A stretch of 64,000 nt of DNA from Isoalcanivorax indicus (GTDB lineage Bacteria; Pseudomonadota; Gammaproteobacteria; Pseudomonadales; Alcanivoracaceae). A model generated the notes under the pieces. It made no database searches, had not been told where the DNA came from, and worked only from the letters and a program-made list of their open reading frames with translations. The DNA lies in the NCBI RefSeq assembly GCF_003259185.1, contig NZ_QGMP01000001.1, positions 1,426,001 through 1,490,000 of the forward strand, given 5' to 3'. The position numbers and the translations under genes were made by a program. This document shows, piece after piece, positions 3,363 through 28,165 of the stretch; position 1 is the first letter of the stretch, and each line of letters starts with the position of its first letter.

Positions 3363-3481
3363 GGCCCTCGGGGGGCGGGTAAGGGTTTTCTGGACACGCC
3401 GCAAGTACATCCATGTAGGCTCTCGTTCGGCATCCATGCCTCTCGAAGGTCCAGAAAACCCTTACCCGCCCCCCGAGGGCC
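3363..3481 (+). repeat. Long hairpin repeat, copy 1
   Basis: Arms 3363-3395 and 3449-3481 are exact reverse complements over 33 bases (start GGCCCTCGGGGGGCGGG, end TTTTCTGGAC). They are separated by a 53-base loop that contains GGCTCTCGTTCGGCATCC. A shorter match (GTGA with one mismatch) extends the arms outward. The same loop core occurs in inverted orientation at 28047-28165 and, more diverged, at 27742-27854. No U-run follows, so it is not a simple terminator; it resembles a dispersed non-coding palindromic repeat. Confidence 0.9.
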
Positions 3482-3573
3482 GTCACGCGCAGCCCTATCT
3501 TCAAGCGGGCAGATGGCCGACGGTGTTGTTCCTCCAGCACGCGCTATCACCACTGAACGCAGAATCTCGCACC

Positions 3574-3686
3574 GGCGTTGAGGCGGGGTGCGCCCTGTAG
3601 GGACATCTTTGCCCAGGGATGGGCAAAGAAAGAGCGCCCATGGACGGCTTGAGCGGTCCCGGAAGGGCGTACCCCGCCTCAACGCC
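3574..3686. repeat. Inverted repeat element of a second type
   Basis: Arms 3574-3596 and 3664-3686 are complementary over 23 bases with one mismatch (core GTTGAGGCGGGG / CCCCGCCTCAAC). Nested inside is a perfect 8-bp hairpin, CTTTGCCC (3607-3614) and GGGCAAAG (3621-3628). It resembles a dispersed repeat, but no second copy lies in this window. Confidence 0.75.
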
Positions 3687-3712
3687 TCCCCGCTGGAGGG
3701 GCAGGAGTTCGG

Positions 3713-4513
3713 TTACTCCTCTTCAATCACACCTGACATGGCCGAGGTATTGGCCCCCGCATCCACATAGGTGATTTCGCCCGTGATGCCGGAGGCCAGA
3801 TCGGAGCACAGGAAGGCCGCTACATTGCCGACTTCCTCGATGGTTACATTGCGACGCAACGGTGCCTTGTTGGCGTTGTGGTCAAGCATGCTGCGGAACT
3901 TCTTGATGCCCGAAGCCGCCAGCGTGCGGATCGGCCCGGCAGAAATGCAATTTACCCGAATGCCTTCCGGGCCCAGGCTGGCCGCCAGGTAGCGCACACT
4001 GGCTTCCAGGCTGGCCTTGGCCATACCCATGACGTTGTAGTTGGGCACGGTCTGCTGCGACGCATGATAGCTCAGCGTCAGCAGACTGCCGTTGCGGCCC
4101 TTCATCATCGCGTGGCCAGCCTTGGCCAGTGCGACGAAGCTGTAGCTCGAAATGTCGTGGGAGATATGGAATCCCTCGCGGGTCGCCACCTCGACAAAGT
4201 TGCCGTCCAGTTCACTGGCCGGGGCGAAGCCCACGGCGTGGATGATGCCGTCCAGACCATCCCAGTGCTTGCCCAGTGAGGCGAACACGGCATCGATTTC
4301 TGCATCGCTGGCCACGTCACAGGGAAAACACAGCTCCGGGCGACCACCGAATGCGTTGGCGGCCTTTTCCACGCGGGTCTTGAGTTTGTCGTTCTGGTAG
4401 GTGAAAGCGAGTTCGGCGCCTTCGCGGTGCATGGCTTCGGCGATGCCCCAGGCGATGGATTTGGTGCTGGCGATACCGACGATCAGATAACGTTTACCGG
4501 CAAGAAAGCCCAT
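3713..4513 (-). CDS. fabI: Enoyl-[acyl-carrier-protein] reductase (NADH) FabI
   Basis: 266 residues (E. coli FabI has 262). It performs the last reduction of each fatty-acid elongation round in the cytoplasm. The N-terminal nucleotide-binding segment is [19 protein letters not shown]. The catalytic Tyr-x6-Lys is Y159/K166 in [14 protein letters not shown], and a second conserved Tyr is Y149 in LTLSYHA. The start at 4513 is preceded by AAGAGGAACCACC; a frame extension to 4588 is open but lacks a ribosome-binding site and family similarity. It lies downstream of the Yej transporter on the same strand, as in Pseudomonas, with a 93-base gap that holds a small dyad. It is the classical triclosan-target type, and G95 in HAVGFAP corresponds to the triclosan-site glycine. 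Confidence 0.96.
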
Positions 4514-4567
4514 GGTGGTTCCTCTTGAAAGCGATCTGGGGGCAATGTAGCGGAAAGCTGCGGCGGC

Positions 4568-4584
4568 TGCATTGCTCAAATGCA
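4568..4584 (-). promoter_or_regulatory. Dyad upstream of fabI, possible operator
   Basis: TGCATT (4568-4573) and AATGCA (4579-4584) are perfect reverse complements separated by 5 bases, 55 bases before the fabI start. A 17-bp dyad in a promoter region is compatible with a regulator site, but I recognise no specific factor. It may also be chance. Confidence 0.3.
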
Positions 4585-4606
4585 ACAAATTCCACCCGGA
4601 GCCGGC

Positions 4607-6205
4607 TCAGCTCAGGGCATGGACCCGGGTGGAAAAGGCGGCCTCAATCAGGGTGCGAGTATAGAGGTGTTGCGGATCGCGGAAGATGGCCTCTGTGGGG
4701 CCTTGCTCCAGCGCCTTGCCGTCGCGCATGACCACCAGCTGGTGGCTGATGGCACGGACCAGCTTCAGGTCGTGGCTGATGAAGATATACGACAGCCCGT
4801 GACGTTCCTGCAGATCGCGCAGCAGTTCCAGGACCTGATGCTGGACGCTGCGGTCCAGTGCAGAGGTGGGTTCATCCAGAATCAGCAGTTCGGGTCGCAG
4901 GATCAGGGCGCGGGCAATGGCGATCCGCTGGCGTTGGCCGCCGGAAAACTCGTGCGGGTAGCGGTGTTGCCAGTCGGCGGGCAAGCCGACTTCCCCCAGG
5001 ATGGTGGCGACTTCGGCGGCGCGTTCGGCGGCCTTCATGTCGGGGCGGTGCACCTGTAAACCCTCCCCGATGATCTGGCCTACGGTCATGCGCGGGTTCA
5101 GCGTGCCCCAGGGGTCCTGGAAGACGACTTGCAGGCGCGCGCGCCAGGGGGTCATGGCGCGGCGGTCCAGCGGGTCAAGGCGAGCGCCGTCCATCTCGAT
5201 CTCACCGCGGCTTTCGATCAGGCGCAATATTGCCATGGCCAGGGTGGATTTGCCGCTGCCGCTTTCGCCCACGATGCCGAGGGTTTCGCCACGACGGACC
5301 AGGGTGTCCACACCGTCCACGGCGCGGAACCAGCTCTTGCTGCCGAAGAAGCTTTTCGGCCCCTGCCGGAACCAGACGCGTAAATCCCGGGTACGCAGGT
5401 GCTCGGGGCGTGTTGCATCGGGGATCGGCGGTGTGCCGCCGGGTTCGGCGGCAAGCAGGTGACGGGTGTAATCGGCGGCGGGAGCCTGCATGACCTGAGC
5501 GGTAGGGCCCTGTTCGACGATCTGGCCGCGATGCATGACCGCAACATCCTCGGCGTAACGGCTCACCAGACCCAGATCATGGGTAATCAGCAATACCGCC
5601 AGGCCCATCTCCTGCTGCAGCTGTTTGATCAGATCCAGGATGCCGGCCTGCACGGTCACGTCCAGCGCGGTGGTGGGCTCGTCGGCAATCAGCACGGTGG
5701 GGTCATTGGCCAGCGCCATGGCGATCATGACGCGCTGCCGCTGGCCGCCGGACAGCTGGTGCGGGTAGCGGCCCAGCAGGGTCTCGGGTTTTGGCAGGTG
5801 TACCTTGTCCAGCAGGGCCAGTACGCGCTTGCGGGTGGCGCTGCGGCTCAGGCCCTGATGCACGGCGATGCTTTCGCCGATCTGTTTTTCCACCGTGTGC
5901 AAGGGGTTCAGGGCGCTCAGGGGTTCCTGGAAGATCATGCCGATACGGCCGCCGCGCAGGCCGCGCAACTGCTGTTCGTTCAGATGCAGTATGTCGCGAT
6001 CTTCGAAGGTCATGGCGCTGGCGCTGACCTGGGCTTGCGGCGGCAGCAGGCGCAGCAGGGAGAGGGCGGTCACGGATTTGCCGGACCCGGATTCCCCGAC
6101 CAGCGCCAGCATGCGTCCGGCATGCAGGGTCAGGGATACCTGATCCACCACCGGATCGCCGGTGCCGAAGCGGACGCTGAGGTTTTCGATCTGCAGTCGG
6201 CTCAT
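4607..6205 (-). CDS. yejF: Oligopeptide/microcin-type ABC transporter, double ATPase (YejF)
   Basis: 532 residues with two fused ABC ATPase domains. The first has Walker A GESGSGKS near residue 36, signature [14 protein letters not shown] and Walker B VLIADEP. The second has [15 protein letters not shown] near residue 315, signature [15 protein letters not shown] and [12 protein letters not shown]. The layout is that of YejF, whose single chain powers the heterodimeric permease YejBE. Its ATG overlaps the yejE stop by 4 bases. It is the last transport gene of a five-gene - strand run, yejA-yejA-yejB-yejE-yejF. In enterobacteria YejABEF imports peptides, including microcin C. Confidence 0.92.
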
Positions 6206-7230
6206 TGCAGGTATTTCCTCGGGTCGAAGGCATCGCGCACCGCTTCACCGATAAAGATCAGCAGTGACAGCAGGAACGCCAGGGACACGAAGGCACTGAT
6301 GCCCAGCCAGGGGGCGTGCAGGTTGGCCTTGCCCTGACCCAGCAGCTCGCCCATGGAAGGGGAGCCGGGCGGCAGGCCAAAGCCGATGAAGTCCAGGGTG
6401 GTGAGCATGATGATGGCGCCGTTGAGGATGAAGGGCACAAACGTCAGGGTGGCGACCATGGCGTTGGGCAGCATGTGCCGCCACATGATGGTGGGTGTGG
6501 GCACCCCCAGGGCCTTGGCGGCGCGCACATAATCCATGTTGCGGCAGCGCAGGAATTCGGCGCGCACCAGATCGACGAGCGACATCCATGAAAACAGCAG
6601 CATGATCAGCAGCAACCACCAGAAATTCGGGGTCACGAAACTGGAGATGATGATGATCAGGTAGAGGATCGGCATGCTCGACCAGATTTCCAGAAAGCGT
6701 TGGCCAGCCAGGTCAATCCAGCCGCCGAAGTAGCCCTGGATGGCGCCCACGGCGATGCCGATAACGCTGCTGGCAAAGGCGAGTATCAGACCGAACAGCA
6801 CCGAGGTGCGGAAGCCGTAGATGATCCGCGCCAGCACATCGCGTCCCTGATCATCGGTGCCAAGCCAGTTTTCGCCAGAAGGCGGTGCAGGGGAGGGTAC
6901 GGTGAGATCATAGTTGATGGTGCTGTAGCTGAAACGGATCAGCGGCCAGATCATCCAGCCGTCGTCTTCGATCAGCTCGCGAACGAAGGGGTCGCGGTAG
7001 TTGGTTTCCGTTTCGAACATGCCGCCAAAGGTGGTCTCGGGATAGCTGTGCAGCACCGGTAAATAGAAGTTGCCCTGGTAGCTCACCAGCAGCGGCTTTT
7101 CGTTGGCGATGAGTTCGGCGCCCATGCAGATGACGAACACGGCCGCGAAGATCCACAGCGACCAGTAGCCGCGACGGTTGGCCTTGAAGGTCTGCCACTG
7201 GCGCTGGTGTACGGGATTACTGAAGACCAT
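6202..7230 (-). CDS. yejE: Peptide ABC transporter permease YejE
   Basis: 342-residue inner-membrane permease of the DppC/OppC family. An N-terminal cytoplasmic helix and first membrane segment (WSLWIFAAVFVICMGAEL) are followed by a periplasmic stretch and the binding-protein-dependent permease domain with several helices. The coupling-loop region is RAAKALGVPTPTIMWRHMLP. The sequence LGTDDQGRDVLARIIYG is typical of YejE/DppC. It overlaps yejB by 1 base and yejF by 4 bases, so translation is coupled. Confidence 0.92.
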   Translation of the reverse strand: MVFSNPVHQRQWQTFKANRRGYWSLWIFAAVFVICMGAELIANEKPLLVSYQGNFYLPVLHSYPETTFGGMFETETNYRDPFVRELIEDDGWMIWPLIRFSYSTINYDLTVPSPAPPSGENWLGTDDQGRDVLARIIYGFRTSVLFGLILAFASSVIGIAVGAIQGYFGGWIDLAGQRFLEIWSSMPILYLIIIISSFVTPNFWWLLLIMLLFSWMSLVDLVRAEFLRCRNMDYVRAAKALGVPTPTIMWRHMLPNAMVATLTFVPFILNGAIIMLTTLDFIGFGLPPGSPSMGELLGQGKANLHAPWLGISAFVSLAFLLSLLIFIGEAVRDAFDPRKYLQ

Positions 7231-8309
7231 CAGTTGTCCCTCCGCTCGAAGTCGATGCGAGGGTCCACCAGCACATAGGTCAGGTCGCTGATCAGCTTCA
7301 GCACCAGCCCGATCAGGGTAAAGATGAACAGGGTGCCGAAGACCACCGGGTAATCGCGGCTGATCACGGCTTCAAAGCCGAGCAGGCCGAGTCCGTCAAG
7401 GGAGAAGATATATTCGATCAGCAGCACGCCGGTGAAGAAGACGCCGACAAAGGCAGCCGGGAAGCCGGCAATGATGATGAGCATGGCGTTGCGGAACACA
7501 TGGCGGTAGAGCACCTGGTTTTCCGTCAGCCCCTTGGCGCGGGCGGTCTGCACATACTGCTTGCTGATTTCATCGAGGAACGAGTTCTTGGTGAGCATGG
7601 TCAGGGTGGCGAAGTTGCCGATGACGATGGCAATCGTGGGCAGGGTAATATGCCAGAAGTAATCGAGAATCTTGCCGCCAAAGGTCAGTTCCTCAAAGTT
7701 ATCCGAGGTCAGGCCACGCAGCGGGAACCAGTCCAGGTAGCTGCCGCCGGCAAACAGCACTACCAGCAGAATGGCGAACAGGAAGCTGGGAATGGCGTAG
7801 CCGACAATGATCAGGCTGCTGCTCCAGACATCGAAGGGAGAGCCGTGGCGCACGGCCTTGCGGATGCCCAGCGGGATCGAGACCAGATAGGTGATCAGCG
7901 TGCTCCACAGCCCCAGCGAGATGGATACCGGCAAGCGTTCGCGTACCAGTTCCACCACGCTGCGGTCGCGATAGTAGGATTCGCCGAAGTCGAAGCTGGC
8001 GTAGTTGCGGATCATCAGCCAGAAGCGCTCGTGGGCGGGCTTGTCGAAGCCGTACATCTTCTGAATGCGCTCCAGCAGCTCGGGGGGCAATCCCTGGGAG
8101 CCGCGATAGCCGCCTTCACCGCTGCCGACGAAATCGGCCCGGCTCCCGGCAAACTGACCGCCGGTGCTGCTTTCGATGCCGCGCAGTTCGGCCACCATGC
8201 GCTCTACCGGGCCGCCGGGGGCGGCCTGAACGATGATGAAGTTCAGCAACAGGATGCCGAACAGGGTGGGAATGATCAGCAGCAGCCGACGCGCAATATA
8301 GCGACTCAT
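7230..8309 (-). CDS. yejB: Peptide ABC transporter permease YejB
   Basis: 359 residues. The N-terminus [20 protein letters not shown] is the usual first membrane helix of DppB/OppB-type permeases. The coupling loop is [22 protein letters not shown], followed by C-terminal membrane helices. A hydrophilic periplasmic insert (about residues 35-85) is typical of YejB. It overlaps yejA by 4 bases and yejE by 1 base. Confidence 0.93.
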
Positions 8310-10087
8310 TCAGCGTCCTTGTGCCACCAGGTATCGAGCGGCAGCCCATGGGGCGCCGGTTTGCCCGGATGGGCCAGATGTTTCCAGTAAGCAATACGGA
8401 AATGGTCGGTGTACCAGTTGGGAATCACGTAGTGCCCCCATTGCAGGGCGCGGTCCAGCGCGCGCACACGAGTCACCAGTGCATCACGGTCGGCGGCGCT
8501 GATCACCAGGTCGACCAGCGCATCAATGGCGGGGTCCTGCAGGCCGAGAAGGTTGCGCGAATCCGGCCGGTCCGCCGCGCTGGAGTGCCAGAAGTCGCGC
8601 TGCTCGTTGCCCGGAGAATTGGACTGGGGGAAGACATTCACCACCATGTCGAAATCGAAGCGGCGCAACCGCTCGATATACTGGGTGTGGTCCACGCGGC
8701 GTACTTCGGCACGCACGCCCAGGCCGCGCAGGTTATTGGCAAAGGGCAGCGATACGCGCTCCCAGGTGGCGCTGTCGATCAGGATCTCGAAACGCACCGG
8801 CTGGCCGTCGGGTGTATGCAGTTGACCGTTGCGCAGTGTATAGCCTGCTTCGCGCAACAGGGTCTGGGCACGTAACAGGTTGTCCCGCGGGCGGCCACTG
8901 CCATCGCTCTTCGGCGGGTTGTACACCGAGGTAAAGACCTCTTCCGGCAGCTTGTCACGCAGTGGCTCGAGGATCGCCAGTTCATCCTTGCCGGGCAGGC
9001 CCTCTGCGGCCAGTTCGGAGTTCTCGAAGTAGCTGCGGGTGCGACGATATTGATTGTGGAACAGGTTCTGATTGGTCCATTCGAAATCAAAGGCGTAGGC
9101 CAGTGCCTTGCGCAGCGTGCGGTCCTGGAACAGCGGGCGGCGCAGATTGTAGGTGAAGGCCTGCATGCCCGAGGGCAGGTCATGATCAAAGGTGTCCATG
9201 ATGATGTCGCCCCGGCTCAGGGCGGGACCCTGGTAGCCGTTCGCCCAGTTGGCGGCCACGTTCTCCAGGCGCAGGTCGTAACGGCCACCCTTGAAGGCTT
9301 CCAGGGCGACAGTGTCATCCAGGAAGTATTCGTAGCTGATCCGGTCAAAGTTGTGGCGGCCACGGTTGACCGGCAGGTCCTTGCCCCAGTAATCAGTGCG
9401 GCGTTCATAGACCACGCGTTTGCCGGGGTCGTGGCTGACGATCCGGTAGGGGCCGCTGCCCAGGGGCGGCTCCAGGGTGCCGCGCTCGAAATTGCGCTCT
9501 TCCCAGTAGTGTTTCGGCAGTACCTGCATCTGGCCAACGATCAAGGCCAACTCGCGGTTGTCGCCGCCACTGAAGCTGAAGCGCACCCGGTGTTTGTCCA
9601 GGGCCTCGACCTTTTCCACATCGCCGTAATAGAAGCTGTAGAAAGGCTGTCCTTTTTCCGTCAGCAGCGTGAAGGTATAGACGACATCCTCGGCAGTGAC
9701 CGGCTTGCCGTCGGCAAAACGGGCTTCCTCGCGCAGGTGATAAATGACCCAGCTGCGGTCCTCGGGCATTTCGATGCGTTCTGCCAGCAGGCCGTATTGG
9801 GTGAAAGGCTCATCGCTGCTGCTGGTGGTCAGGGTATCGTAGAGCATGCCCAGACCGGCTGCGGGGGAGCCTCGGGAGATGAAAGGGTTGAAACTGTCGT
9901 AGGTGCCGATGGTGTGTCGACGCAGGCGCCCGCCTTTGGGCGCATCCGGATTGACGTAATCAAAGTGGGCGAAGTCAGCGGGGTATTTGGGTTCACCATG
10001 CATGGCGATAGCGTGTTCGCCCGGGGCGGCACTCAGGCCATGGCTGAACAGGCCGGCCAACAGCGCCGGCAGAAGCACTCGTTTCAT
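8306..10087 (-). CDS. yejA: Extracellular solute-binding protein of the Yej transporter (copy proximal to yejB)
   Basis: 593 residues with a Sec signal peptide ([20 protein letters not shown]) and the SBP_bac_5 family fold, including [35 protein letters not shown] and [20 protein letters not shown]. It captures peptides in the periplasm for YejBEF. The ATG at 10087 is directly preceded by a GTG that could also start. It overlaps yejB by 4 bases. A second homologous binding protein lies immediately upstream at 10102-11958. The two share architecture (NPDAPKGG and NPDAPRVG near the N-terminus; [11 protein letters not shown] and WYIDHHRLAWW near the C-terminus) but have diverged clearly, suggesting different ligand ranges. 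Confidence 0.9.
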
Positions 10088-10101
10088 CACGTCTTGTCAC
10101 C

Positions 10102-11958
10102 CTAGTCTGTTTTTTTCCACCAGGTCTCGGTACCCAGTATGTAGGGCATGGGCGCATCCGGGCGACCGAACTTGTCCCACCATGCCAGCCGGTGGTGATC
10201 AATGTACCAGTGCGGCACTGAATAATGCTGCCAGAGTAGCACGCGGTCCAGTGCCTGCATGGCAGCGCGGTAATCGGCGTCAGTTTCTGCGGCCATGCTG
10301 GCGTCTATCAATGCATCCACTACCGGGTCACTGATGCGTGAATAGTTGCGGCTGCCCGCCATGTCTGCACTTGATGAATGCAGGTAGTCACGCAGTTCCG
10401 GTCCGGGATAGGCGCGCTGCGGCAACACAAAAATCGTGATGTCGTAGTCGAACCGGTCGAGGCGCTCCTTGTAACTGGCCGGGTCCAGGGGACGATAACT
10501 GGCCTGGATGCCGACGCGTTCAAGGTTGCGCAGATACGGTTCCACCACACGCGCCATACCGGGTGTCTGATAATTGAGAATTTCCAGGCGCAAAGGTTCC
10601 CCGCTGTCACGGTGTACCAGATGACGCCCCTGGATGCGGTAACCGGCCTCTTGCAGCAGCGCGATGGCCTGCTGCATGCGCTCACGGATGTTCCCCGAGC
10701 CATCACCCTGCGGGTGCTGGAAAGGTCGGGTGAAGAGTTCGGCGGGCAGGCGCTCGCGGAAGGGTTCCAGCAATGCCAGCTCGCGTCCCTGGGGCACACC
10801 GGTCGCGCTGTTGAGGCTGTTCGGGAACCAGCTCTCGGAGCGTGCATAGGCATCGTTGAAGATGGCGCGGTTGGTCCACTCGAAATCGAACAGCAGGTTC
10901 AGGGCCTCGCGCACACGGCGATCATGCAGTGGCGGGCGGCGCTGGTTGATGAAGAAGGCCTGGGTGCCCTTGGGCACACTGTGTGGAATTTCGGCCCGCT
11001 GGATACGGCCACGGCGCACGGCCGGGAAGCTGTAGGCGGTGGCCCAGTGCTTGGCCACATAGTCCAGATGCACATCGTAGCCGCCGGTCTTGAAGGCCTC
11101 GAAGCCCACCTGGGCATCGCGGTAGAAATCGAAAACCACCTCATCGAAGTTGTAGCGGCCGCGATTGACCGGCAGGTCGCGGGCCCAGTAGTCCTCGACC
11201 CGTTCAAACACGATCTGCCGTCCCGGGCGGACGCGCGCGATGCGGTAGGGGTTGCTGACCACCGGGGGCTCCAGCGTGGCGCCGAAGTCACGTTCGGCCC
11301 AGTAATGGGCGGGCAGCACGGGCAGGTCGCCAAGAGCGAGCGGCAGATCCCGGCGCCCTTCACCGGTCAGGGTGAAGCGCACCCGGTGGCTGTCCAGCAC
11401 CTCGGCCCCGGTGACGTCGCTGAGCATCAGGGCATAGCGTGGATGACCCTGTTCACGCAGCAGATCAAGGGAAAAGACAACGTCTTGTGCGGTAATCGGA
11501 GTGCCGTCGTTGAAGCGCGCTTCCTCGCGCAGGTGAAAGATCACCCAGTCGAGGCTGGCCGGGTACTCCACCGTATGGGCGATCAGCCCGTAGGCGCTGC
11601 TGGGTTCGTCACCGACCCGGTTATGGGCACCGCTGCCCATCAGCAGGGTATCGGTGGTCTCCAGAAAGCCGAACACCGAGGCCCCCGGGGTGCCGGCCAG
11701 GCTGCGGCCGGTCATGACATAAGGGTTGAGGCTGTCGAAGGTGCCGAAGCCAAACAGCTTCAGTGTGCCGACTCGGGGCGCGTCGGGATTGACGTAATCG
11801 AAGTGCTCGAAGTCAGCGCCATAACGCAGTTCCCCGAAGGGGCTGTAACCGTGGCTGCGGGTGACCGGATCCTCTTCCCGCCCGCTGGCCTGCGCGCTGA
11901 GCGCCAGCAGCCACAGCAGGGCGGGCCACAGGTGCATGGCGGGTCGCATGACAGTCAT
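10102..11958 (-). CDS. Second extracellular solute-binding protein of the Yej transporter
   Basis: 618 residues with signal peptide MRPAMHLWPALLWLLALSAQA (start at residue 4; the listed ATG adds three residues) and SBP_bac_5 family features such as [29 protein letters not shown] and HWYIDHHRLAWWDKF. AAGGAGAGAGCCGAGG precedes the start. It is separated from the next yejA gene by 14 bases and is probably in the same operon. Two tandem binding proteins in front of one permease set also occur at the syntenic Pseudomonas aeruginosa locus, as I recall it. Confidence 0.88.
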   Translation of the reverse strand: MTVMRPAMHLWPALLWLLALSAQASGREEDPVTRSHGYSPFGELRYGADFEHFDYVNPDAPRVGTLKLFGFGTFDSLNPYVMTGRSLAGTPGASVFGFLETTDTLLMGSGAHNRVGDEPSSAYGLIAHTVEYPASLDWVIFHLREEARFNDGTPITAQDVVFSLDLLREQGHPRYALMLSDVTGAEVLDSHRVRFTLTGEGRRDLPLALGDLPVLPAHYWAERDFGATLEPPVVSNPYRIARVRPGRQIVFERVEDYWARDLPVNRGRYNFDEVVFDFYRDAQVGFEAFKTGGYDVHLDYVAKHWATAYSFPAVRRGRIQRAEIPHSVPKGTQAFFINQRRPPLHDRRVREALNLLFDFEWTNRAIFNDAYARSESWFPNSLNSATGVPQGRELALLEPFRERLPAELFTRPFQHPQGDGSGNIRERMQQAIALLQEAGYRIQGRHLVHRDSGEPLRLEILNYQTPGMARVVEPYLRNLERVGIQASYRPLDPASYKERLDRFDYDITIFVLPQRAYPGPELRDYLHSSSADMAGSRNYSRISDPVVDALIDASMAAETDADYRAAMQALDRVLLWQHYSVPHWYIDHHRLAWWDKFGRPDAPMPYILGTETWWKKTD

Positions 11959-12014
11959 CCTCGGCTCTCTCCTTGTTGTCCTGCCGTGGTCATGCCGGCC
12001 TTCGGTACGCCGGA

Positions 12015-13613: not shown

Positions 13614-13750
13614 TGTAAGGCAGGACTCCGCAGGCCCCGGATGGTCGGGGCGCGTCTATGGTTGTTATGACCGATGCAACTCGGATGCCACATTCTATGT
13701 AGCGGTTGCTTACCCGGGCAAGCCGGGCTGCGGTCGGTTCACGCCGTGCA

Positions 13751-14548: not shown

Positions 14549-14630
14549 GCCGCCATGGTAGGGAAGCGCTGACGGCGACGCCAGTGGTGAGCTGCGGTAG
14601 ACTGTGAGTCAGAACTGGCAGGAGGTGGTC

Positions 14631-19900: not shown

Positions 19901-19920
19901 TGTCATTAAAGGAGCATTGA

Positions 19921-20976
19921 GTGATCGAGTTTTTCACGGACTACGGGCTGTTCCTGGCCAAGGTGGCCACGTTGGCGTTTGCCATCCTGTTTGTGGTGGG
20001 CGGCGTCATCAGTGCCGCGGCACGGCAGCGTGGCCAGCATCAGGATGAGCAGGGCGACCTGCGCGTACGGCATCTGAACGATGAAATGGAGAGCCTGCGC
20101 GATAACCTGCGTCATGCGGTGTTGCCCGATGCAGAACGCAAGGCGGCTCGCAAGCAGCAACGCAAGGAAGAAAAGGCCCGGCAGAAGGCGGCGCGCAAGG
20201 CCGGTGCCATGGCGGCAGACCGCAAGGCGCGTGTTTTCGTGCTGGATTTTGATGGCGATGTCCAGGCCAGCGCCGTGGACAACCTGCGTCGGGAAATCAC
20301 CGCCGTACTGGAAGCGGCGGACAAGAAAGACGAAGTCGTGCTGCGCCTGGAAAGCCCCGGTGGTCTGGTGCATGCCTACGGGCTGGCGTCATCACAGCTG
20401 CGCCGTATCCGTAATCAGGGCGTGCGCCTGACGGTTTGTGTGGACAAGGTGGCGGCCAGTGGCGGCTACATGATGGCCTGTATTGCCGACCGCATTGTTG
20501 CAGCGCCCTTCGCCATTGTCGGCTCGATAGGTGTGGTGGCACAGATCCCCAACTTCCACCGCTTGTTGCGCAAGCACGATGTGGATGTCGAGTTGATGAC
20601 CGCTGGCGAATACAAACGCACCCTGACCATGTTTGGCGAGAATACGGACAAGGACCGCGAGAAATTCCAGGAAGAGCTGGAGGACACCCACCTGCTGTTC
20701 AAGGAGTTTGTCCGCGAGCATCGCCGCAATCTCGATATCGCGCAGATTGCCACCGGCGAACACTGGTTCGGGACCCGGGCCAAAGATATCGGTCTGGTGG
20801 ATGACTTGCAGACCAGTGATGAATACCTGCTGACGCGCTGCAAGGAGGCGGACGTCTACGAGGTAAGCTGGCATACGCGCCAGAAGCTGGCGGAGCGTCT
20901 GGGTCTGGCGTTCGAGGGCAGCCTCGAACGGGTCATGGAGCGCTGGTTTCATCGTGGCGCACGACGCTGGTGGTAA
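19921..20976 (+). CDS. sohB: Inner-membrane serine protease SohB
   Basis: 351 residues of the S49 (signal peptide peptidase A) family. An N-terminal membrane helix (residues 6-33) and a charged Arg/Lys/Ala-rich coiled linker (about 70-100) precede the protease domain. The nucleophile is S180 in KVAASGGYMMACIADRI, and the general-base lysine is about K232 in MTAGEYKR. The start is a GTG at 19921 with AAAGGAG 6 bases upstream. SohB acts at the periplasmic face of the membrane. Confidence 0.93.
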   Translation: MIEFFTDYGLFLAKVATLAFAILFVVGGVISAAARQRGQHQDEQGDLRVRHLNDEMESLRDNLRHAVLPDAERKAARKQQRKEEKARQKAARKAGAMAADRKARVFVLDFDGDVQASAVDNLRREITAVLEAADKKDEVVLRLESPGGLVHAYGLASSQLRRIRNQGVRLTVCVDKVAASGGYMMACIADRIVAAPFAIVGSIGVVAQIPNFHRLLRKHDVDVELMTAGEYKRTLTMFGENTDKDREKFQEELEDTHLLFKEFVREHRRNLDIAQIATGEHWFGTRAKDIGLVDDLQTSDEYLLTRCKEADVYEVSWHTRQKLAERLGLAFEGSLERVMERWFHRGARRWW

Positions 20977-20979
20977 ATC

Positions 20980-21981
20980 ATGAGTGATCCCTTTGCTGCA
21001 CTGCTGACCACCGAACAGGACGGCCGCTACCGGACAGAGCTGGTGCAGCGTTCCCTGGATGATCTGCCTGAAGGCGATGTGCTGATACGCGTGCAATGGT
21101 CATCGCTGAACTTCAAGGATGCGTTGTCGGCCAGCGGCAACAAGGGCGTGACGCGCCGGTACCCGCACACGCCGGGTATCGACGCGGCGGGCCTGGTGGT
21201 CAGTGATGCCAGCGGCACCTTCGCCGAGGGCGCGGCGGTGATGGTCACCGGTTACGATCTGGGCATGAACACCGCCGGGGGCTACGGTGAATATATTCGC
21301 GTGCCTGCGGCCTGGGTGGTGCGTCTGCCGGAGGGTCTGAAGGCACGCGACGCCATGTTGCTGGGCACCGCCGGACTGACAGCGGGCTTGTGCGTGCAGG
21401 CGTTGCTGGACAGCGGGGTGGCGCCGGAAGACGGTGATATCCTGGTCACCGGGGCCACGGGGGGCGTGGGTTCCCTGGCGGTGGCGCTGCTGGCGCACCT
21501 CGGTTTTACCGTGGTGGCGGGGACTGGCAAGGCGGATGCCCATGACTGGCTCAGGGCTCTGGGCGCGGCATCCTGTCTGGACCGGGATGCGCTGTTCGGC
21601 GAGTCATCTGCCCGGCCGATGCTGAAGCCACGCTGGGCCGGTGCCGTGGATACCCTCGGCGGCGAGCCTTTGGCCAGTGTCATCAAGTCCACCGCTTATG
21701 GCGGCAGCGTCGCCTGTTGCGGACTGGCTGCCAGCACCGATCTGCCGTTGACGGTGTTCCCGTTCATTCTGCGTAACGTGCGCCTGCTGGGCGTCGACAG
21801 CGTAGAGCAGCCGCTGGCGGCCAAGACGGCGGTCTGGCAGCGGCTGGCCACAGACTGGCGCCTGCCGGTACTGGAGCAGATTGTGGCAGCGGAGGTGGGC
21901 CTGGCGGACCTGCCAGCCTGGTTTGAACGGATTCTTGCCGGAGGCGTGCGCGGCCGGGTGCTGGTGCGCGTTAACGGATAA
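20980..21981 (+). CDS. acuI: Acrylyl-CoA reductase-type oxidoreductase (AcuI/YhdH)
   Basis: 333-residue medium-chain dehydrogenase/reductase without the catalytic zinc site, of the YhdH/AcuI group. Features include WSSLNFKDALSASGNKGV near the N-terminus, the NADP-binding loop VTGATGGVGSLAVALLA, and a C-terminal LADLPAWFERILAGGVRGR. AcuI-type enzymes reduce toxic acryloyl-CoA with NADPH. It begins 3 bases after sohB. The exact substrate is inferred from the family. Confidence 0.85.
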   Translation: MSDPFAALLTTEQDGRYRTELVQRSLDDLPEGDVLIRVQWSSLNFKDALSASGNKGVTRRYPHTPGIDAAGLVVSDASGTFAEGAAVMVTGYDLGMNTAGGYGEYIRVPAAWVVRLPEGLKARDAMLLGTAGLTAGLCVQALLDSGVAPEDGDILVTGATGGVGSLAVALLAHLGFTVVAGTGKADAHDWLRALGAASCLDRDALFGESSARPMLKPRWAGAVDTLGGEPLASVIKSTAYGGSVACCGLAASTDLPLTVFPFILRNVRLLGVDSVEQPLAAKTAVWQRLATDWRLPVLEQIVAAEVGLADLPAWFERILAGGVRGRVLVRVNG

Positions 21982-22005
21982 CCCCGACAGAAACGGGAGA
22001 CGCTG

Positions 22006-22971
22006 ATGGATGCTGCAGCGCTCGTGCATGCAGTCTTGCTGGACGGGGCCGGGGGTGGGCGTCGGCTCACCCCGGATGAGGCAGCAGCCTGGCAGCCTGC
22101 CCAGGGCCTGTTATGGCTGCATCTGGATTATACCCACCCTGACACCCCCCGATGGCTGGCGCAGATGGCTCTGCCCGCACTGGTCAGTGATGCCATGCTG
22201 GCGCAGGAGACTCGGCCGCGGGCGGCGCCCATGCGCGACGGCACGCTGGTTTACCTGCGCGGTGTCAACCTCACGCCGGGCGCACACCCTGAAGACATGA
22301 TTGCCATTCGTCTGTGGCTGACGCAGACCTGTATCGTCAGCACTCAGCGCCGCCCGCTGGGGTCGGTGGCGGACATGCTGGAGGATCTGGCGCAAGGCAA
22401 CGGGCCCGGAGACACCTGGAGCCTGCTGGTGGACCTGACGGATCGGCTTACCTGGTATATGGAAGACGTGGTGGACCAGGTGGAAGAGCAGATTGCCACC
22501 TACGAAGAGGTCGCCATGGTGCGGCAAAGCAGGGGGCTGCGTAACGAGATCGCCCGGGTGCGTCGCCGGGTGAGTATCCTGCGGCGCTATCTGGCGCCGC
22601 AACGTGATGCCCTGGCCCGGTTGCTGGACAGCAGCGGCCCTCTTGCTGACGCGGAGCGCGGGCGTTTGCGTGAGGTTATGGACCGGCTTCAGCGTCTGCT
22701 GGAAGACCTGGATGCGGCGCGTGAACATGCCAATATCGCCCAGGAAGATCTGGCGAACCGGCTGGCCGATGAGTTGAATCGGCGTATGTATGTGCTGGCG
22801 ATCTTTTCGGTCGTTTTCCTGCCTCTGACGTTCCTGACGGGTTTGCTCGGGGTGAACCTTGAAGGGATACCCGAGGCGGAGTCGGAACTGGCGTTTCCGG
22901 TATTCGTGCTGATGCTGGTGGTGGTAGGTGGCGGGATAGTGGCGGTGCTGCGGCGGCGGGGGTGGTTGTAG
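22006..22971 (+). CDS. zntB: CorA-family zinc transporter ZntB
   Basis: 321 residues. A long cytoplasmic helical domain is followed by two C-terminal membrane helices (about 262-284 and 298-316). The loop between them contains GVN in LTGLLGVNLEGIPE, the signature of ZntB and CorA channels; the EGIPE variant fits ZntB better than the GMN of CorA. It forms a pentameric divalent-cation transporter. It ends next to a palindromic region shared with the convergent DUF934 gene. Confidence 0.9.
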   Translation: MDAAALVHAVLLDGAGGGRRLTPDEAAAWQPAQGLLWLHLDYTHPDTPRWLAQMALPALVSDAMLAQETRPRAAPMRDGTLVYLRGVNLTPGAHPEDMIAIRLWLTQTCIVSTQRRPLGSVADMLEDLAQGNGPGDTWSLLVDLTDRLTWYMEDVVDQVEEQIATYEEVAMVRQSRGLRNEIARVRRRVSILRRYLAPQRDALARLLDSSGPLADAERGRLREVMDRLQRLLEDLDAAREHANIAQEDLANRLADELNRRMYVLAIFSVVFLPLTFLTGLLGVNLEGIPEAESELAFPVFVLMLVVVGGGIVAVLRRRGWL

Positions 22972-22972
22972 G

Positions 22973-23019
22973 GCCTGACGGGGTGGCCATCGACCCAACC
23001 CGTCAGGCTCGCGCGAGCC
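22973..23019. terminator. Palindromic region between convergent genes, probable bidirectional terminator
   Basis: GCCTGACGGG (22973-22982) pairs perfectly with CCCGTCAGGC (22999-23008). It abuts a perfect 14-bp palindrome GGCTCGCGCGAGCC (23006-23019). It lies between the stops of zntB (+) and the DUF934 gene (-). Long T-runs are missing, so its efficiency is uncertain. Confidence 0.55.
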
Positions 23020-23033
23020 TACCCGTTTACCGC

Positions 23034-23528
23034 TCAGTGACGGCGGTAGATTGGTCGCGGATCGTTCACATCGCCTTGGTAGGTCACCGAGAAATCCCGC
23101 AGCCCGTTCAGGGCGTCATGGATATCCCGGTCAGCACGAATGACAAAGGCATTGAAACCGACGCGCTGCATGTAGAACAGCTGATCGCGCAGCACGTCCC
23201 CCACCGCACGGACCTCACCCTTGAACCCGTAGCGGGTGCGCAGTTCGCGGGCATAGGAATAGCCGCGCCCGTCCTTGAAGGCCGGGAAGTTGATGGCGAC
23301 CAGCGGCAGGGCGGCGAAATCGTCCGCCAGTGCTGCCGGCTCCTCGCCGGGTTCCAGGCACACTCCCACATCACCGCGTGCCTTCAGGCTCTCACGGTGC
23401 GCCTGCCAGTAGGCCAGCGGCACGATCACCGGGCCGTCGGGCAGCGCCTGCAGTGCGGCCAGCGCCTCCGCGTCGAGCCGTTGCCAGGTGTCGTCGACGA
23501 TCACGCCGTCCTTAATGATCTGTGGCAT
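23034..23528 (-). CDS. DUF934 protein of the sulfite reductase operon
   Basis: 164 residues beginning MPQIIKDGVIVDDTW, with GRGYSYARELRTRYGFKGE and VRAVGDVLRDQLFYMQRVGFN, hallmarks of DUF934. The family almost always accompanies cysI/nirA-type sulfite reductase and may serve sulfite or electron supply, but its role is not established. The ATG at 23528 lies inside the end of cysI (17-base overlap); a longer frame to 23630 would start in an implausible sequence. Confidence 0.87.
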   Translation of the reverse strand: MPQIIKDGVIVDDTWQRLDAEALAALQALPDGPVIVPLAYWQAHRESLKARGDVGVCLEPGEEPAALADDFAALPLVAINFPAFKDGRGYSYARELRTRYGFKGEVRAVGDVLRDQLFYMQRVGFNAFVIRADRDIHDALNGLRDFSVTYQGDVNDPRPIYRRH

Positions 23529-25173
23529 AGGCCCGCTCCTTGAAGGGTTCGATGCCCAGACGCTCGTAGGTGTCGACAAACAGCTCGTCGGGCTTGCGCT
23601 GTTCGACATACAGATCCACCAGGCGGGCAATCACCGGCACCACCTGATCGGCGTCGAAGGATGGCCCCAGCTTCTCGCCGATTTTCGAGACCTTGTCGCC
23701 ACGGCCGCCCAGCGTGATCTGGTAGTACTCGCGGCCTTTCTTGTCGACCCCGAGAATGCCGATATGGCCGATATGATGATGCCCGCAGGCATTCATGCAG
23801 CCGGAAATATTCACGTCGATCGGCCCCAGATCATGCAGATAATCCATGTCATCAAAGTGACGCTGGATCGCTTCGGCAATCGGGATCGACTTGGCGTTGG
23901 CCAGCGAGCAGAAGTCACCGCCCGGGCAGGCAATCATGTCGGTCAGCAGCTTCAGGTTCGGGGTGGCGAAGCCCAGCGCGTCCAGCTTTTCCCACAGCGG
24001 GAACAGCTGATCCTGGCGCACATCACCGAGCACGATGTTCTGCTGGTGCGTGGTACGGGCCTCGGCAAAGCTGTAGGTCTCGGCCAGGTCGGCAACGGCA
24101 TCGAGTTCTTCATCGGTGATATCACCGGGAGCACGGCCCGTTTTCTTCAGCGTCAGGGTGACGGCCGCGTAACCGGGTTGCCGGTGCGCGGTGACGTTGG
24201 TGTGGAACCAGCGGTTGAAGGCCTTGTTCGAGGCCAGGGCTTCCTCCAGTGCCGCAGGGCGCTGGCCCAGCGCCGTGTCATAGGCCGGCGTGGAAAAATG
24301 CCCGCGCATCGTGTCGACTTCGTCGGCGGTCAGCGTCATCGGGCCGTCTTTCAGCTCGGCAAATTCCGCTTCTGTCAGCGCCCGGAATTTTTCGGCGCCC
24401 AGCGCCTTCACCAGAATCTTGATGCGTGCCTTGTACTTGTTGTCGCGGTTGCCGTACTTGTTGTAGACCCGCAGGATCGCTTCCAGGTATGAAAGCAGGT
24501 GCGGCCAGGGCACGAAATCGCCGATGACCTCGCCGACCATCGGCGTCCGGCCCAGGCCGCCGCCCGCCAGTACCCGGAAGCCGGTCTCGCCATCGCGATG
24601 TACGACCTGCACGCCAATATCGTGCACGCCGATCAGCGCCGGATCAGCATCCGGGACCGCGTTGACCGCAATCTTGAACTTGCGCGGCAGGTAGGCGAAT
24701 TCAGGGTTGAAGGTCGCCCACTGACGGATGATCTCGCACCAGGGGCGCGGGTCTTCGATTTCGGCGGCGTTGATGCCCGCGAATTCATCGGTGGTCACGT
24801 TGCGGATGCAGTTGCCGCTGGTCTGGATGGCATGCATCTCGACCTCGGCCAGCGCCGCGAGAATGTCCGGCACGTCTTCCAGATCCGGCCAGTTGTACTG
24901 GATGTTCTGGCGCGTGCTGACATGGGCGTAGCCCTTGTCCCACTCGCGCGCGATGCGGCCGAGCATGCGCAGCTGGGTGCTGCTGAGCATGCCGTAGGGC
25001 ACGGAAACCCGCAGCATCGGCGCATAGCGCTGGATATAGAGCCCGTTCTGCAGTCGCAGGGGCAGGAATTCATCGTTGCTCAACTGGCCGTCGAGATAGC
25101 GCCGGGTCTGATCCCGGAATTGCGCTACCCGCTCACTCAGGAGCTGCTTGTCATGGGGTCGGTATACGTACAT
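23512..25173 (-). CDS. cysI: Sulfite reductase hemoprotein (nitrite/sulfite reductase family)
   Basis: 553 residues. It reduces sulfite to sulfide using a siroheme coupled to a [4Fe-4S] cluster. Cluster and siroheme ligands are visible as CPGGDFC (about C415 and C421) and CMNAC (about C457 and C461), the Cx5C...Cx3C pattern. Two ferredoxin-like half-domains repeat as usual (RVSVPYGMLSSTQLRMLGRI at the N-terminus; TGYAAVTL-type segments later). It is expressed with the DUF934 gene. The upstream region (25174-25339) has an AT-rich candidate promoter and a perfect 12-bp palindrome that may be a CysB site; cysB itself is at 49747. Confidence 0.93.
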   Translation of the reverse strand: MYVYRPHDKQLLSERVAQFRDQTRRYLDGQLSNDEFLPLRLQNGLYIQRYAPMLRVSVPYGMLSSTQLRMLGRIAREWDKGYAHVSTRQNIQYNWPDLEDVPDILAALAEVEMHAIQTSGNCIRNVTTDEFAGINAAEIEDPRPWCEIIRQWATFNPEFAYLPRKFKIAVNAVPDADPALIGVHDIGVQVVHRDGETGFRVLAGGGLGRTPMVGEVIGDFVPWPHLLSYLEAILRVYNKYGNRDNKYKARIKILVKALGAEKFRALTEAEFAELKDGPMTLTADEVDTMRGHFSTPAYDTALGQRPAALEEALASNKAFNRWFHTNVTAHRQPGYAAVTLTLKKTGRAPGDITDEELDAVADLAETYSFAEARTTHQQNIVLGDVRQDQLFPLWEKLDALGFATPNLKLLTDMIACPGGDFCSLANAKSIPIAEAIQRHFDDMDYLHDLGPIDVNISGCMNACGHHHIGHIGILGVDKKGREYYQITLGGRGDKVSKIGEKLGPSFDADQVVPVIARLVDLYVEQRKPDELFVDTYERLGIEPFKERAYATDH

Positions 25174-25292
25174 GGCGTCGGGGGTTCACCCTGTCTCGTG
25201 GCTGCCGATAGCTCCGGCAGAAGGCGTACGCACAGTGTAACGCAGTCGCCGGAGGCGCCGCACTGTAGCAAAGCGGGCTTATTCAGAAAAGT

Positions 25293-25314
25293 AATATATG
25301 GCCATAAGCTTATG
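25293..25314 (-). promoter_or_regulatory. Candidate cysI promoter with ATAAGC palindrome
   Basis: On the - strand, TATATT (25293-25298) can serve as a -10 box; 17 bases upstream the hexamer is CATATC, a poor -35 box, as expected for an activated promoter. The perfect palindrome CATAAGCTTATG (25303-25314) lies in the spacer. A related TATAAGCATA precedes cysH (51561-51570). Assignment to CysB is inference. Confidence 0.45.
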
Positions 25315-25339
25315 CGATATGGTACTTCGCCAGGGTGGC

Positions 25340-25570
25340 TCAGGTGCCTGAAAGCACGATATTCACGGTCAGGATCATGCCCACCACCAGCGCGACCACC
25401 AGGAACACATAGACAATGATATAGTCGCTGGCCTTGCCCTGGCGGAAGTCGCGCTCGCGGTTACGACCGCTCTGTACGCCGAACAGCGCCGCCAGAACAC
25501 TCCAGATGACCTGGAAGACGTTCGGTTTGTCCTGTTCCTCCTGATCGTGCTCCTGCCGATGCTCGTTCAT
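25340..25570 (-). CDS. DUF2970 small membrane protein
   Basis: 76 residues. A charged N-terminus (MNEHRQEHDQEEQDK) is followed by NVFQVIWSVLAALFGVQSG and a C-terminal membrane helix (YIIVYVFLVVALVVGMILTV). This is the DUF2970 layout: QVxxSVLAAxFGVQS, a short loop with RDF, and one helix. The ATG at 25570 has GAGG 5 bases upstream; a GTG 15 bases earlier is possible. Function unknown. Confidence 0.85.
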   Translation of the reverse strand: MNEHRQEHDQEEQDKPNVFQVIWSVLAALFGVQSGRNRERDFRQGKASDYIIVYVFLVVALVVGMILTVNIVLSGT

Positions 25571-25627
25571 GTCTGCCTCGCTCACATTGCTGCCCTCATC
25601 CTGTGTTGCCCTTCTATAGTCAGGCCG

Positions 25628-26953
25628 TTATAGCCGGATGTCGACCCACTGGCGGCGCATCCACAGACGCCCCAGCAAGAGCGATGTGACCAGCCGCTGC
25701 CCGGCCTGCAGGATCCAGACGCCCAGCAAGCCACCGCCCAGCACGGGCCCGATGATATAGGCCAGCGGCAAAAAGAAACACCACTGTACGCACAGCGTGA
25801 CCAGCATCACCGAGCGCGCTGCCCCGGCGCCCAGCAGCGCCTGGGTAAAGACGATGGCAATGCCATCCAGGCAGATCGCCAGCCCGGTGATCATCAGCGG
25901 CAGGCGGCCCAACTCCACCAGCTCGGGCTCGCGCAGGAAGATGCCCAGTATCAGATCCGGCACCAGCCACATGGGCAATGCCATCAGGAACAGCAGGATC
26001 ATGGCCAGCCGCGTGACGTCCCAGCCCCAGCGGTAGGCATCCTCCGGCTCACGCCGCCCCAGCGCCTGGCCGACCAGCGAGGTGGCCGACAGCCCCAGCC
26101 CGATGGCCGGCAGGATCAGAAACAGCACCAGCGTGATCAGCACATGGGCTACCGCCACTTCCTGGGTGCCAATGCGCCCGATGATCCAGAACAACACTAC
26201 CAGCCCGGCCGAAAACAGCAGCTGCTGCACCGACTGCGGCGCGGCGACCCGCAAGATATTGAGCAGGGTCGTGCGCGCCGGCCGCGCCACCATGAAGCCG
26301 TGCACCCGGCCTTCGCGCCAGGTCTGGATGAAATACAGCAGGCTGCCGAAATACAACGCCAGGGTGGTCCCGATGCCCGCCCCGGTGCTGCCCAGCTCAG
26401 GCAGCCCGAAAGCGCCGAAGATCAGGCCATAGCTGATAATCACGTTCAGCACATGCACGGAGACCAGCGTGCGCAGGTAAACCCCGGATCGGTTGATGCC
26501 GTTCCAGTAGCCGCGGTAACTGAAGTTCATCGCCACCGCAAACACCCCGCAGATCCGCGCCAGCAGATAGGGCTCGGCCAGCGCCTGCACGGCATCATCG
26601 GCCGCCAGCACCGCCATCAGGTCAGCGGAAAATTGCCAGAAGAACAGCAGGATAGGCACCGACAGCGCCATCCCGATCAGCAGCCCGGCATTCAGCGGCA
26701 CCGCATAGACTGTCGGATCGCCTTCACCCTTGCGCCGCGCCACCATGGCCTGGACACCTGCACCGAGACCCAGCACCAGGCTGATGGCCATGAAGTTCGC
26801 ATAGCCGCCCAGGCCGACAGCGGCCAGGGCTTCACCGCCCAGGCTGCCGACCATGGCGGCGTCCACCAGATTCAGCAGACTCTGGCTGGCCATGGCGCCC
26901 ATGATGGGCAGGGCAAGGGCAAGGATGCGGCGGCTGCGTACAGCGTCGAGCAT
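25628..26953 (-). CDS. MATE-family cation/drug antiporter (NorM-like)
   Basis: 441 residues with about 12 membrane helices. The N-terminus RILALALPIMGAMASQSLLNLVDAAMVG and a central counterpart (LNILRVAAPQSVQQLLFSAG) mark the two MatE half-domains. Such pumps export cationic drugs and metabolites in exchange for Na+ or H+. It is divergent from nfuA, with about 150 bases between the starts. The substrate cannot be deduced. Confidence 0.9.
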   Translation of the reverse strand: MLDAVRSRRILALALPIMGAMASQSLLNLVDAAMVGSLGGEALAAVGLGGYANFMAISLVLGLGAGVQAMVARRKGEGDPTVYAVPLNAGLLIGMALSVPILLFFWQFSADLMAVLAADDAVQALAEPYLLARICGVFAVAMNFSYRGYWNGINRSGVYLRTLVSVHVLNVIISYGLIFGAFGLPELGSTGAGIGTTLALYFGSLLYFIQTWREGRVHGFMVARPARTTLLNILRVAAPQSVQQLLFSAGLVVLFWIIGRIGTQEVAVAHVLITLVLFLILPAIGLGLSATSLVGQALGRREPEDAYRWGWDVTRLAMILLFLMALPMWLVPDLILGIFLREPELVELGRLPLMITGLAICLDGIAIVFTQALLGAGAARSVMLVTLCVQWCFFLPLAYIIGPVLGGGLLGVWILQAGQRLVTSLLLGRLWMRRQWVDIRL

Positions 26954-27040
26954 GAAGGCTCCAGTCGGACCGGGCAGGGCGGGTACAATCGGCGCGCAAG
27001 GATAACAGAGTGGGCCCCGGGGCTCACTTGCTTCTGTGCT

Positions 27041-27063
27041 ATACTTGACTAAAATACTCGGGA
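27041..27063 (+). promoter_or_regulatory. IscR type 1-like site before nfuA
   Basis: ATACTTGACTAAAATACTC and the following four bases match the published IscR type 1 consensus (ATASYYGACTRWWWYAGTCRRST) at 21 of 23 positions by my count; mismatches are position 17 (C for G) and the last base. It overlaps a TTGACT -35-like hexamer (27045-27050) and lies 45 bases before the nfuA start. IscR would tie nfuA expression to iron-sulfur cluster status. Confidence 0.75.
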
Positions 27064-27107
27064 ATTAATGCACGCTGCCGATGCCGGCGCGACCAGTGGA
27101 GACGTCT

Positions 27108-27701
27108 GTGACCGATAGCCTCATCACCGTGACCCCCAACGCTCAGGAATACCTCCGTGACCTGCTGGACAAGCAGAGTTCGCCGGGGATGGGTGTGCGC
27201 ATCTTTGTCGAGCGCCCGGGCACGCCCCATGCGGAGTGCTGCATGGCGTATTGCCCCGAGGGCGAGCAGGAAGAGGGCGATGTGCGTTACGACTACGAGG
27301 GCTTCCACGCCTGGCTGGACGGCAAGAGCCTGCGTTACCTGGAAGATGCGGTCATCGACTACAAGAAGGACTCCATGGGCGGGCAGCTGACCTTCCGCGC
27401 ACCGAAATCACGGGTGCCGGAGCTGAGCGCCGATGCGACGCTGGAGGAGCGCATCAACTACGTGCTCTATTCCGAGATCAACCCGGGGCTGGCGTCGCAC
27501 GGTGGCAATGTGCAGCTGCTCGAGCTGACCGAGGAAAATGTGGCGGTGCTGGAGTTCGGTGGGGGTTGCCAGGGCTGCTCAGCCGTGGACATGACCTTGC
27601 GTGATGGCGTGGAGCGCACGCTGAAAGAGCGCATTCCCGAGCTGGCCGCTGTTCGTGACAAGACCGATCATACGGTGACGGAGAATGCCTACTACAAGTA
27701 G
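27108..27701 (+). CDS. nfuA: Fe/S biogenesis protein NfuA
   Basis: 197 residues (E. coli 191). The N-terminal degenerate A-type domain (VRIFVERPGTPHAECCMAYC) is followed by a NifU-like C-terminal domain with the cluster-binding CxxC in FGGGCQGCSAVDMTL. NfuA carries [4Fe-4S] clusters to target enzymes under stress or iron limitation. The GTG at 27108 has GGAG 6 bases upstream and gives the family N-terminus MTDSLITVTPNAQEYL; an ATG at 27081 would add nine residues. An IscR-type site lies just upstream. Confidence 0.95.
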   Translation: MTDSLITVTPNAQEYLRDLLDKQSSPGMGVRIFVERPGTPHAECCMAYCPEGEQEEGDVRYDYEGFHAWLDGKSLRYLEDAVIDYKKDSMGGQLTFRAPKSRVPELSADATLEERINYVLYSEINPGLASHGGNVQLLELTEENVAVLEFGGGCQGCSAVDMTLRDGVERTLKERIPELAAVRDKTDHTVTENAYYK

Positions 27702-27741
27702 GGTGGCTGGCGTTTCCGGGTGGTTGGGTGCTCCGTAGCCC

Positions 27742-27854
27742 GGCCTCGGGGAGGGGGACTCCCTTCCAGAAGCCGCCGTGAACCCATCCATGGGGGCTTG
27801 CGTTCGGCTTCCTGCCTCACACACTTCTGGAAGGGAGTCCCCCTCCCCGAGGCC
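27742..27854 (+). repeat. Long hairpin repeat, copy 3 (diverged arms)
   Basis: Arms 27742-27772 and 27824-27854 are exact reverse complements over 31 bases (starting GGCCTCGGGGAGGGGG, containing CCCTTCCAGAAG). They are separated by a 51-base loop with CCCATCCATGGGGGCTTG and GTTCGGCTTCCTGCC. The loop aligns with those of the other two copies, while the arms are different yet still perfectly paired. Confidence 0.88.
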
Positions 27855-27893
27855 TCATTCAGTGCCAACTGCCGGTTCTGTACTTCGTAGCTT

Positions 27894-27992
27894 GTAGGCT
27901 GGGCTGAGCAGCGCGAAGCCCAGCATGATGTCCGTCTTGCTCGTGGCGGATTCTGCCTGATGCCGGGCTTCGCTACGCTCAACCCAGCCTAC
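27894..27992. repeat. GTAGGCTGGG-type inverted repeat
   Basis: Arms 27894-27924 and 27962-27992 are complementary over 31 bases with five mismatches (GTAGGCTGGG...GCGAAGCCC and its complement). One arm of the same motif recurs at 47990-48021. Similar GTAGGCTGGG/GAGCG/GCGAAGCCC repeats are, from memory, common in gammaproteobacterial intergenic DNA. Confidence 0.75.
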
Positions 27993-28046
27993 CGGACGAA
28001 CGAAACTCTCGGTTGGCTGGAAGTCGTTAACCGGGCTGCGCGTGAC

Positions 28047-28165
28047 GGCCCTCGGGGGGTGGGTAAAGGGTTTCTGGACCTTCGAGAGGCATGGATGCCG
28101 AACGAGAGCCCCCAGGGACGGGTTTACGGCGTGTCCAGAAACCCTTTACCCACCCCCCGAGGGCC
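28047..28165 (-). repeat. Long hairpin repeat, copy 2 (inverted)
   Basis: Arms 28047-28079 and 28133-28165 are exact reverse complements over 33 bases (starting GGCCCTCGGGGGGTGGG). The 53-base loop, read on the - strand, matches copy 1 in ACACGCCG and in GGCTCTCGTTCGGCATCC. Relative to copy 1 the arms differ at three positions, and each change is matched by the complementary change in the opposite arm. Confidence 0.9.

Follow-up and report, generated by a model that had tools for sequence, protein, structure and literature searches.

The window, i.e. the whole stretch of 64,000 nucleotides of Isoalcanivorax indicus DNA that was analysed, carries hairpins whose long arms differ in sequence from copy to copy and are still paired, and the question arose of how the arms of such elements are kept complementary while their sequence changes. 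The original prediction had described three hairpins and had offered selection on the folded structure or a copying mechanism that regenerates palindromes as explanations. All three hairpins were indeed found, with perfect arms of 33, 33 and 31 bp, and two of them (alpha units 1 and 2) differ at three arm positions, each of which is matched in the opposite arm. They are not alone, however: a fourth, less perfect hairpin had been missed, and the elements form two convergent composites (alpha unit 1 with a gamma unit, and a beta unit with alpha unit 2), each located between convergent genes.

3363-3481, plus strand: alpha unit 1; arms 3363-3395 and 3449-3481 (perfect, 33 bp), core 3396-3448
3406-3417, minus strand: small hairpin 1 of alpha unit 1, TACATCCATGTA; the minus-strand loop has GGA
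3429-3440, minus strand: small hairpin 2 of alpha unit 1, GGCATCCATGCC; the minus-strand loop has GGA
3574-3686, minus strand: gamma unit, inverted partner of alpha unit 1; arms 3574-3604 and 3656-3686 (87% complementary)
27742-27854, plus strand: beta unit; arms 27742-27772 and 27824-27854 (perfect, 31 bp)
27894-27992, no strand assigned: separate inverted repeat, a GTAG-type REP pair (GTAGGCTGGG...), nested in the gap of the beta/alpha composite
28047-28165, minus strand: alpha unit 2, inverted partner of the beta unit; arms 28047-28079 and 28133-28165 (perfect, 33 bp)
28088-28099, plus strand: small hairpin 2 of alpha unit 2, GGCATGGATGCC on the plus strand, seen in the fold
28111-28122, plus strand: small hairpin 1 of alpha unit 2, CCCAGGGACGGG on the plus strand with the hexaloop AGGGAC, seen in the fold

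Four folds of the three hairpins gave MFE z-scores of -9.1 to -11.0, and none of 200 dinucleotide shuffles folded equally well. A 19-nt core pattern matched twice in the window with up to 3 mismatches, compared with 0.03 matches expected, and the covariance model R1 described below matched the gamma unit at 3567-3691 on the minus strand. Inspection of the flanks bore out that the units themselves have no T-run. By eye, a terminator-like hairpin with a T-run was seen just upstream of alpha unit 1 (~3272-3296), and the gene upstream of the second composite (27081-27701) is presumably NfuA-like. A 54-bp palindrome at 33071-33124 (arms of 27 nt, 96%, zero spacer) is unrelated to the units. Membership in an Rfam family was rejected: the window matched two tRNAs only, and the units gave miRNA-type hairpin matches below the gathering score.

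The hairpins belong to a large family of repeats

A covariance-model search of the genome and its relatives, as the original prediction had suggested, was run with a model (R1) trained on 42 sequences, and this revealed a family far larger than three hairpins. In the genome of the window (genus Alcanivorax), where full copies of 3363-3481 were numerous by blastn, 124 R1 matches over both strands fall into 77 places (E ≤ 0.001). Matches were found in 11 of 28 genomes of relatives, including 4 of 7 of the genus (G000, G001, G003 and G005, not G002, G004 and G006), and in 42 of 274 genomes of the class sample, the last being an upper bound as the core was recovered at 27 of the 29 class loci inspected and not at those of G125 and G245. 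Convergent pairs with other arms also occur in other families of the order. Among named records, the exact 24-nt core was present in 13 stretches, all from one Alcanivorax MAG. Units were observed at contig ends of G000 (C2:1, C3:68, C6:49, C6:12375); the repeats therefore probably break the assembly, and their copy number may be undercounted. Plasmids and phages gave no match, no paper describing this hairpin family was found in open-licence PMC text outside figure strings, and a term probe of PMC2267715, which deals with stem-loop families, was likewise without a match. The family is real, widespread and, as far as these searches reach, undescribed, and falls within the palindromic interspersed repeats.

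Each unit consists of a 5' arm, a conserved core of ~52 nt and a 3' arm. The core forms two small hairpins and the arms a long closing stem (mean 31 bp), giving a three-way junction of about 110-130 bp in total. Seen from the plus strand, the loops of the core hairpins are ATCCN, which corresponds to A-N-GGA on the minus strand; 5-nt and 4-nt loops are present in some units. Three types occur in the genome of the window, alpha (A1), beta (A4) and gamma (A5); stems of gamma units stay imperfect. Alpha units are paired with alpha, beta or gamma units, usually across a gap of about 80 nt, and pairs make up 27 of the 50 places examined. The genes flanking these 50 places, called with a simple ORF caller, were convergent at 22, co-directional at 23 and divergent at 3, with 2 unresolved, and single units in co-directional gaps lay in the same orientation as the genes in 6 cases and opposite in 5. 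Units of ~207 nt (L043, L114, L077, L078, L079) have a similar ~77-nt insertion within small hairpin 1, and in L113 one hairpin is shrunk to a short stub.

The core presents two GGA loops on one strand

Of the 179 units, 174 have two GGA-loop hairpins on the minus strand, and all 38 genomes are represented among them, whereas the plus strand has such a pair in 1 unit and shuffled sequences in 54 of 3580 cases; because the search pattern had included TCC in hairpin 1 (with up to 3 mismatches allowed), the count is unbiased for hairpin 2 only. The distance from GGA to GGA was 20 nt in 134 of the 174 units, and MFE folds of the minus strand had GGA in both loops in 131 and in one loop in 35 of the 179 units. 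According to the accessible part of PMC7652899, the SELEX consensus of CsrA is RUACARGGAUGU with GGA in the loop, and CsrA bridges two sites 10-63 nt apart, best above 18. The units carry loop GGA at paired sites within this distance, and a frequent core hairpin (UACAGGGAUGUA) follows the consensus. Distinct wobble-type defects would be G-U on the minus strand in 45 cases and on the plus strand in 17 (p 0.0005), which points to the minus strand as well; mutation bias could also explain this asymmetry. Judged from sequence, transcription of the minus strand and its docking by CsrA/RsmA are putative. A csrA gene was found in 38 of 42 unit-bearing genomes and in 197 of 232 others, i.e. without association; the unit-bearing genomes lacking a csrA row are G035 (75% complete), G096 (88%), G127 (67%) and G223 (98%).

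Arms change in sequence and stay paired

The claim that pairing is kept despite sequence change held in the genome of the window as well as at orthologous sites. Among A1 units, 20 of 33 stem pairs show two-sided change, with 125 two-sided cells and 2 one-sided ones (G-U); none of 500 shuffles attained these values, and slid controls were only 28-56% paired. The stems of 179 distinct units (38 genomes) comprise 5544 cells, of which 5445 are Watson-Crick pairs, 20 are G-U and 79 mismatched, and the stem is perfect in 109 units; here, the best-scoring run was taken as the stem (14-49 bp, at least 25 bp in 158 of 179), a choice that favours paired ends.

In several distant genomes, the arms are largely unrelated from copy to copy yet paired, and the cores are alike. 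The median identity within a genome over the inner 26 arm bases was 46% in G116, 46% in G266, 50% in G020 and 31% in G022, compared with 84, 84, 88 and 80% over the first 25 core bases. Part of the G266 arms resemble one another loosely, the rest are unrelated, and outside the arms the flanks have no visible conservation in this genome. Like cores and divergent arms within one genome may in part reflect constraint on the core, or arms being rewritten at each copy.

Changes at orthologous sites were counted in 13 unit pairs from G000/G005 and G010/G016 with up to 3 core differences, which comprise 406 bp of stem. There, 20 two-sided paired changes (8 transitions and 12 transversions) were found versus 8 one-sided changes. 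The paired ones occur in 6 of the 13 unit pairs. Left out of the count were L020A/L080A, L031/L076, L017/L079, L015/L085 and the same-place pair L034A/L086A (at least 10 core edits, reflecting block swaps, or misregistered stems) as well as the paralogs L055/L065. L101/L183 was counted in its corrected register.

Some of these sites have changed in place. At L050/L061, the flanks are 97 and 92% identical and collinear, but the composite is inverted and carries 10 paired and 1 one-sided changes; a donor for its arms was found in neither genome (next match 79%). L034/L086 has an identical core and 2 paired changes and appears inverted, judged from the left flank since the contig of L086 ends inside the second unit. 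At the paralogs L055/L065, the core is inverted relative to the flanks. Arms changed at L034B/L086A with no core difference and at L019B/L058B with two. Block swaps between unchanged flanks were seen at L020A/L080A, L031/L076, L017/L079 and L015/L085, of which L085 is a mosaic with mismatched arms, and some orthologous gene gaps hold different composites. Interim counts had linked paired changes to inversion (p 0.014), a link that was not relied on; the final paired and one-sided counts are 12 and 1 at inverted and 8 and 7 at non-inverted sites.

At L196 (G016:C36, ~307-357), a 21-bp perfect palindrome with other arms, a 9-nt loop and no core takes the place of a full unit in G010, and at another site the unit present in G010 is deleted in G016. 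A pre-insertion state at these two G010 sites was rejected; judged from the remaining end motifs, the unit or its core has disappeared from G016. At the site of L101 in G003 and G001, the stop codons are about 45 nt apart and arm sequence is absent; these sites are too diverged to tell whether the arms arose from an inverted target duplication. The gap orthologous to L101 in G004 (L185, G004:C8) holds a different, REP-like inverted repeat (GGGTGGGTAGAGCC...). With regard to MITEs, which have terminal inverted repeats and target duplications, end motifs such as CCATTCT.../...AGAATGG and GGCAGTGA recur, and no clean pre-insertion site was found.

Discussion

How can long arms be free in sequence and bound to each other? 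In our proposal, which we give an even chance of being right as a whole, the arms are kept by copying at the DNA level, the core with its CsrA/RsmA-type loops is kept by selection or spread, and the units spread as composites. When replication meets the palindrome, one arm would template the other, presumably by template switching of the polymerase (quasipalindrome correction), so that a change in one arm would be either erased or copied into the other; the same kind of event could invert the spacer. The core would be the part held by selection or spread, and composites would carry the copies to new places, as suggested by shared end motifs at many sites. Template switching homogenises the arms of inverted repeats and inverts spacers, as described in the accessible part of PMC8604942 for ordinary inverted repeats, not for the upkeep of a repeat family. 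Arm copying fits better than RNA selection alone, and is the best-supported mechanism, because of the paired two-sided changes, the few wobbles, the in-place inversions and the core-less palindrome with other perfect arms; among the explanations first offered, a palindrome-regenerating copying process is the one that fits best. Fast copying is argued against by the one-sided changes, which are not rare, and by the confinement of paired changes to part of the unit pairs; correction is therefore not fast or not uniform. The imperfect stems of gamma units also speak against the proposal.

If, instead, the units were transcribed and RNA-level selection alone kept the stem by compensatory point mutations, strong covariation and the excess of G-U on one strand would be expected as observed. 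However, a one-sided G-U is the usual first step of such compensation, wobbles are nearly absent from the long stems and most paired changes are transversions, for which no G-U step is possible; slow compensation via G-U is therefore a poor fit, and the inversions and the core-less palindrome require a DNA event, which makes this explanation rather unlikely. Ectopic gene conversion, in which one dispersed copy overwrites another over a tract that spans the core and its two arms, would account for the block swaps and for the mosaic L085, and exchange between copies does contribute. The original prediction had itself named unpaired substitutions as common as paired ones, or pairing that comes from recent gene conversion only, as speaking against it, and both are seen in part: 8 of 28 changed pairs are one-sided and some differences are block swaps, yet no donor for L050/L061 was found in either genome. 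Moreover, arms changed where the core is the same or nearly so, and conversion leaves the origin of the donors' perfect but different arms unexplained; we hold it to be improbable. A bolder version of arm copying, in which a mobile ~52-nt core makes its own palindromic arms on landing by fold-back copying and the copies are dispersed CsrA/RsmA docking sites at gene ends, appears decidedly improbable.

Positions at gene ends, with many places between convergent genes, would suit terminators or 3'-end stabilisers, but the units lack a T-run, several are located downstream of a terminator with a T-run, and single units in co-directional gaps face either way, so that this function is very improbable. 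The same positions, together with inverted dimers and a true GTAG-type REP within some gaps (besides the window at L017, L021, L024, L047 and L058, 5 of 116 loci inspected), had suggested REP elements mobilised by a Y1 transposase (RAYT). This link did not survive: no R1 unit lies in the ~1.5 kb flanks of the one Y1_Tnp gene in the genome or of three such genes in congeners (L115, L091, L093, L094), G010 and G016 carry units and have no Y1_Tnp match, and the units of about 110-130 bp with their 31-bp stem are unlike the REPs of 20-40 bp described in the accessible part of PMC3733652. Only beta units of the genome and L053/L063 have GTAG ahead of the stem, and mobilisation by RAYT is scarcely credible. 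Copying by a retron or another reverse transcriptase was also rejected, with no RVT_1 match in the genome of the window nor in the unit-bearing genomes G000, G001, G003, G008, G010, G022 and G027.

Among known repeats, Rickettsia palindromic elements are about 100-150 bp long, dispersed, inserted in genes and of family-specific sequence, and we know of no enzyme that serves them; the units resemble them in size and dispersal but are intergenic and have arms that vary per copy. REP/REPIN and GTAG- or CGTC-tagged repeats, as far as the accessible text of PMC3733652 describes them, are similarly extragenic, present in many copies, arranged as inverted dimers and near gene 3' ends; CGTC repeats have no known transposase, some REP dimers lie inside longer palindromes, and that text has no mention of Alcanivorax. 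REP stems are tagged and measure 5-13 bp (GTAG) or 8-9 bp (CGTC), whereas the stems of the units are far longer and free in arm sequence, and unlike tagged REPs the units conserve an internal core with two GGA/TCC-loop hairpins. In this core, they are like CsrB, CsrC and RsmX/Y/Z, which have paired GGA-loop hairpins at a spacing that a CsrA dimer can bridge (accessible parts of PMC7652899 and PMC4383904); these are, however, single sRNA genes with many sites, whereas the units are present in dozens, dispersed, with two sites and a very long stem.

If arm copying is true, the units are a repeat family with a clean split between a conserved and a freely rewritten part, in which the natural history of how palindromes are copied in bacterial chromosomes can be read across related species; perfect covariation in long stems alone would then be no proof of selection on RNA. 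Docking of CsrA/RsmA, put forward here from the loops, is a putative function and the boldest one that can be tested; if the GGA loops do bind CsrA/RsmA, dozens of unannotated sites would join the Csr/Rsm network in such genomes.
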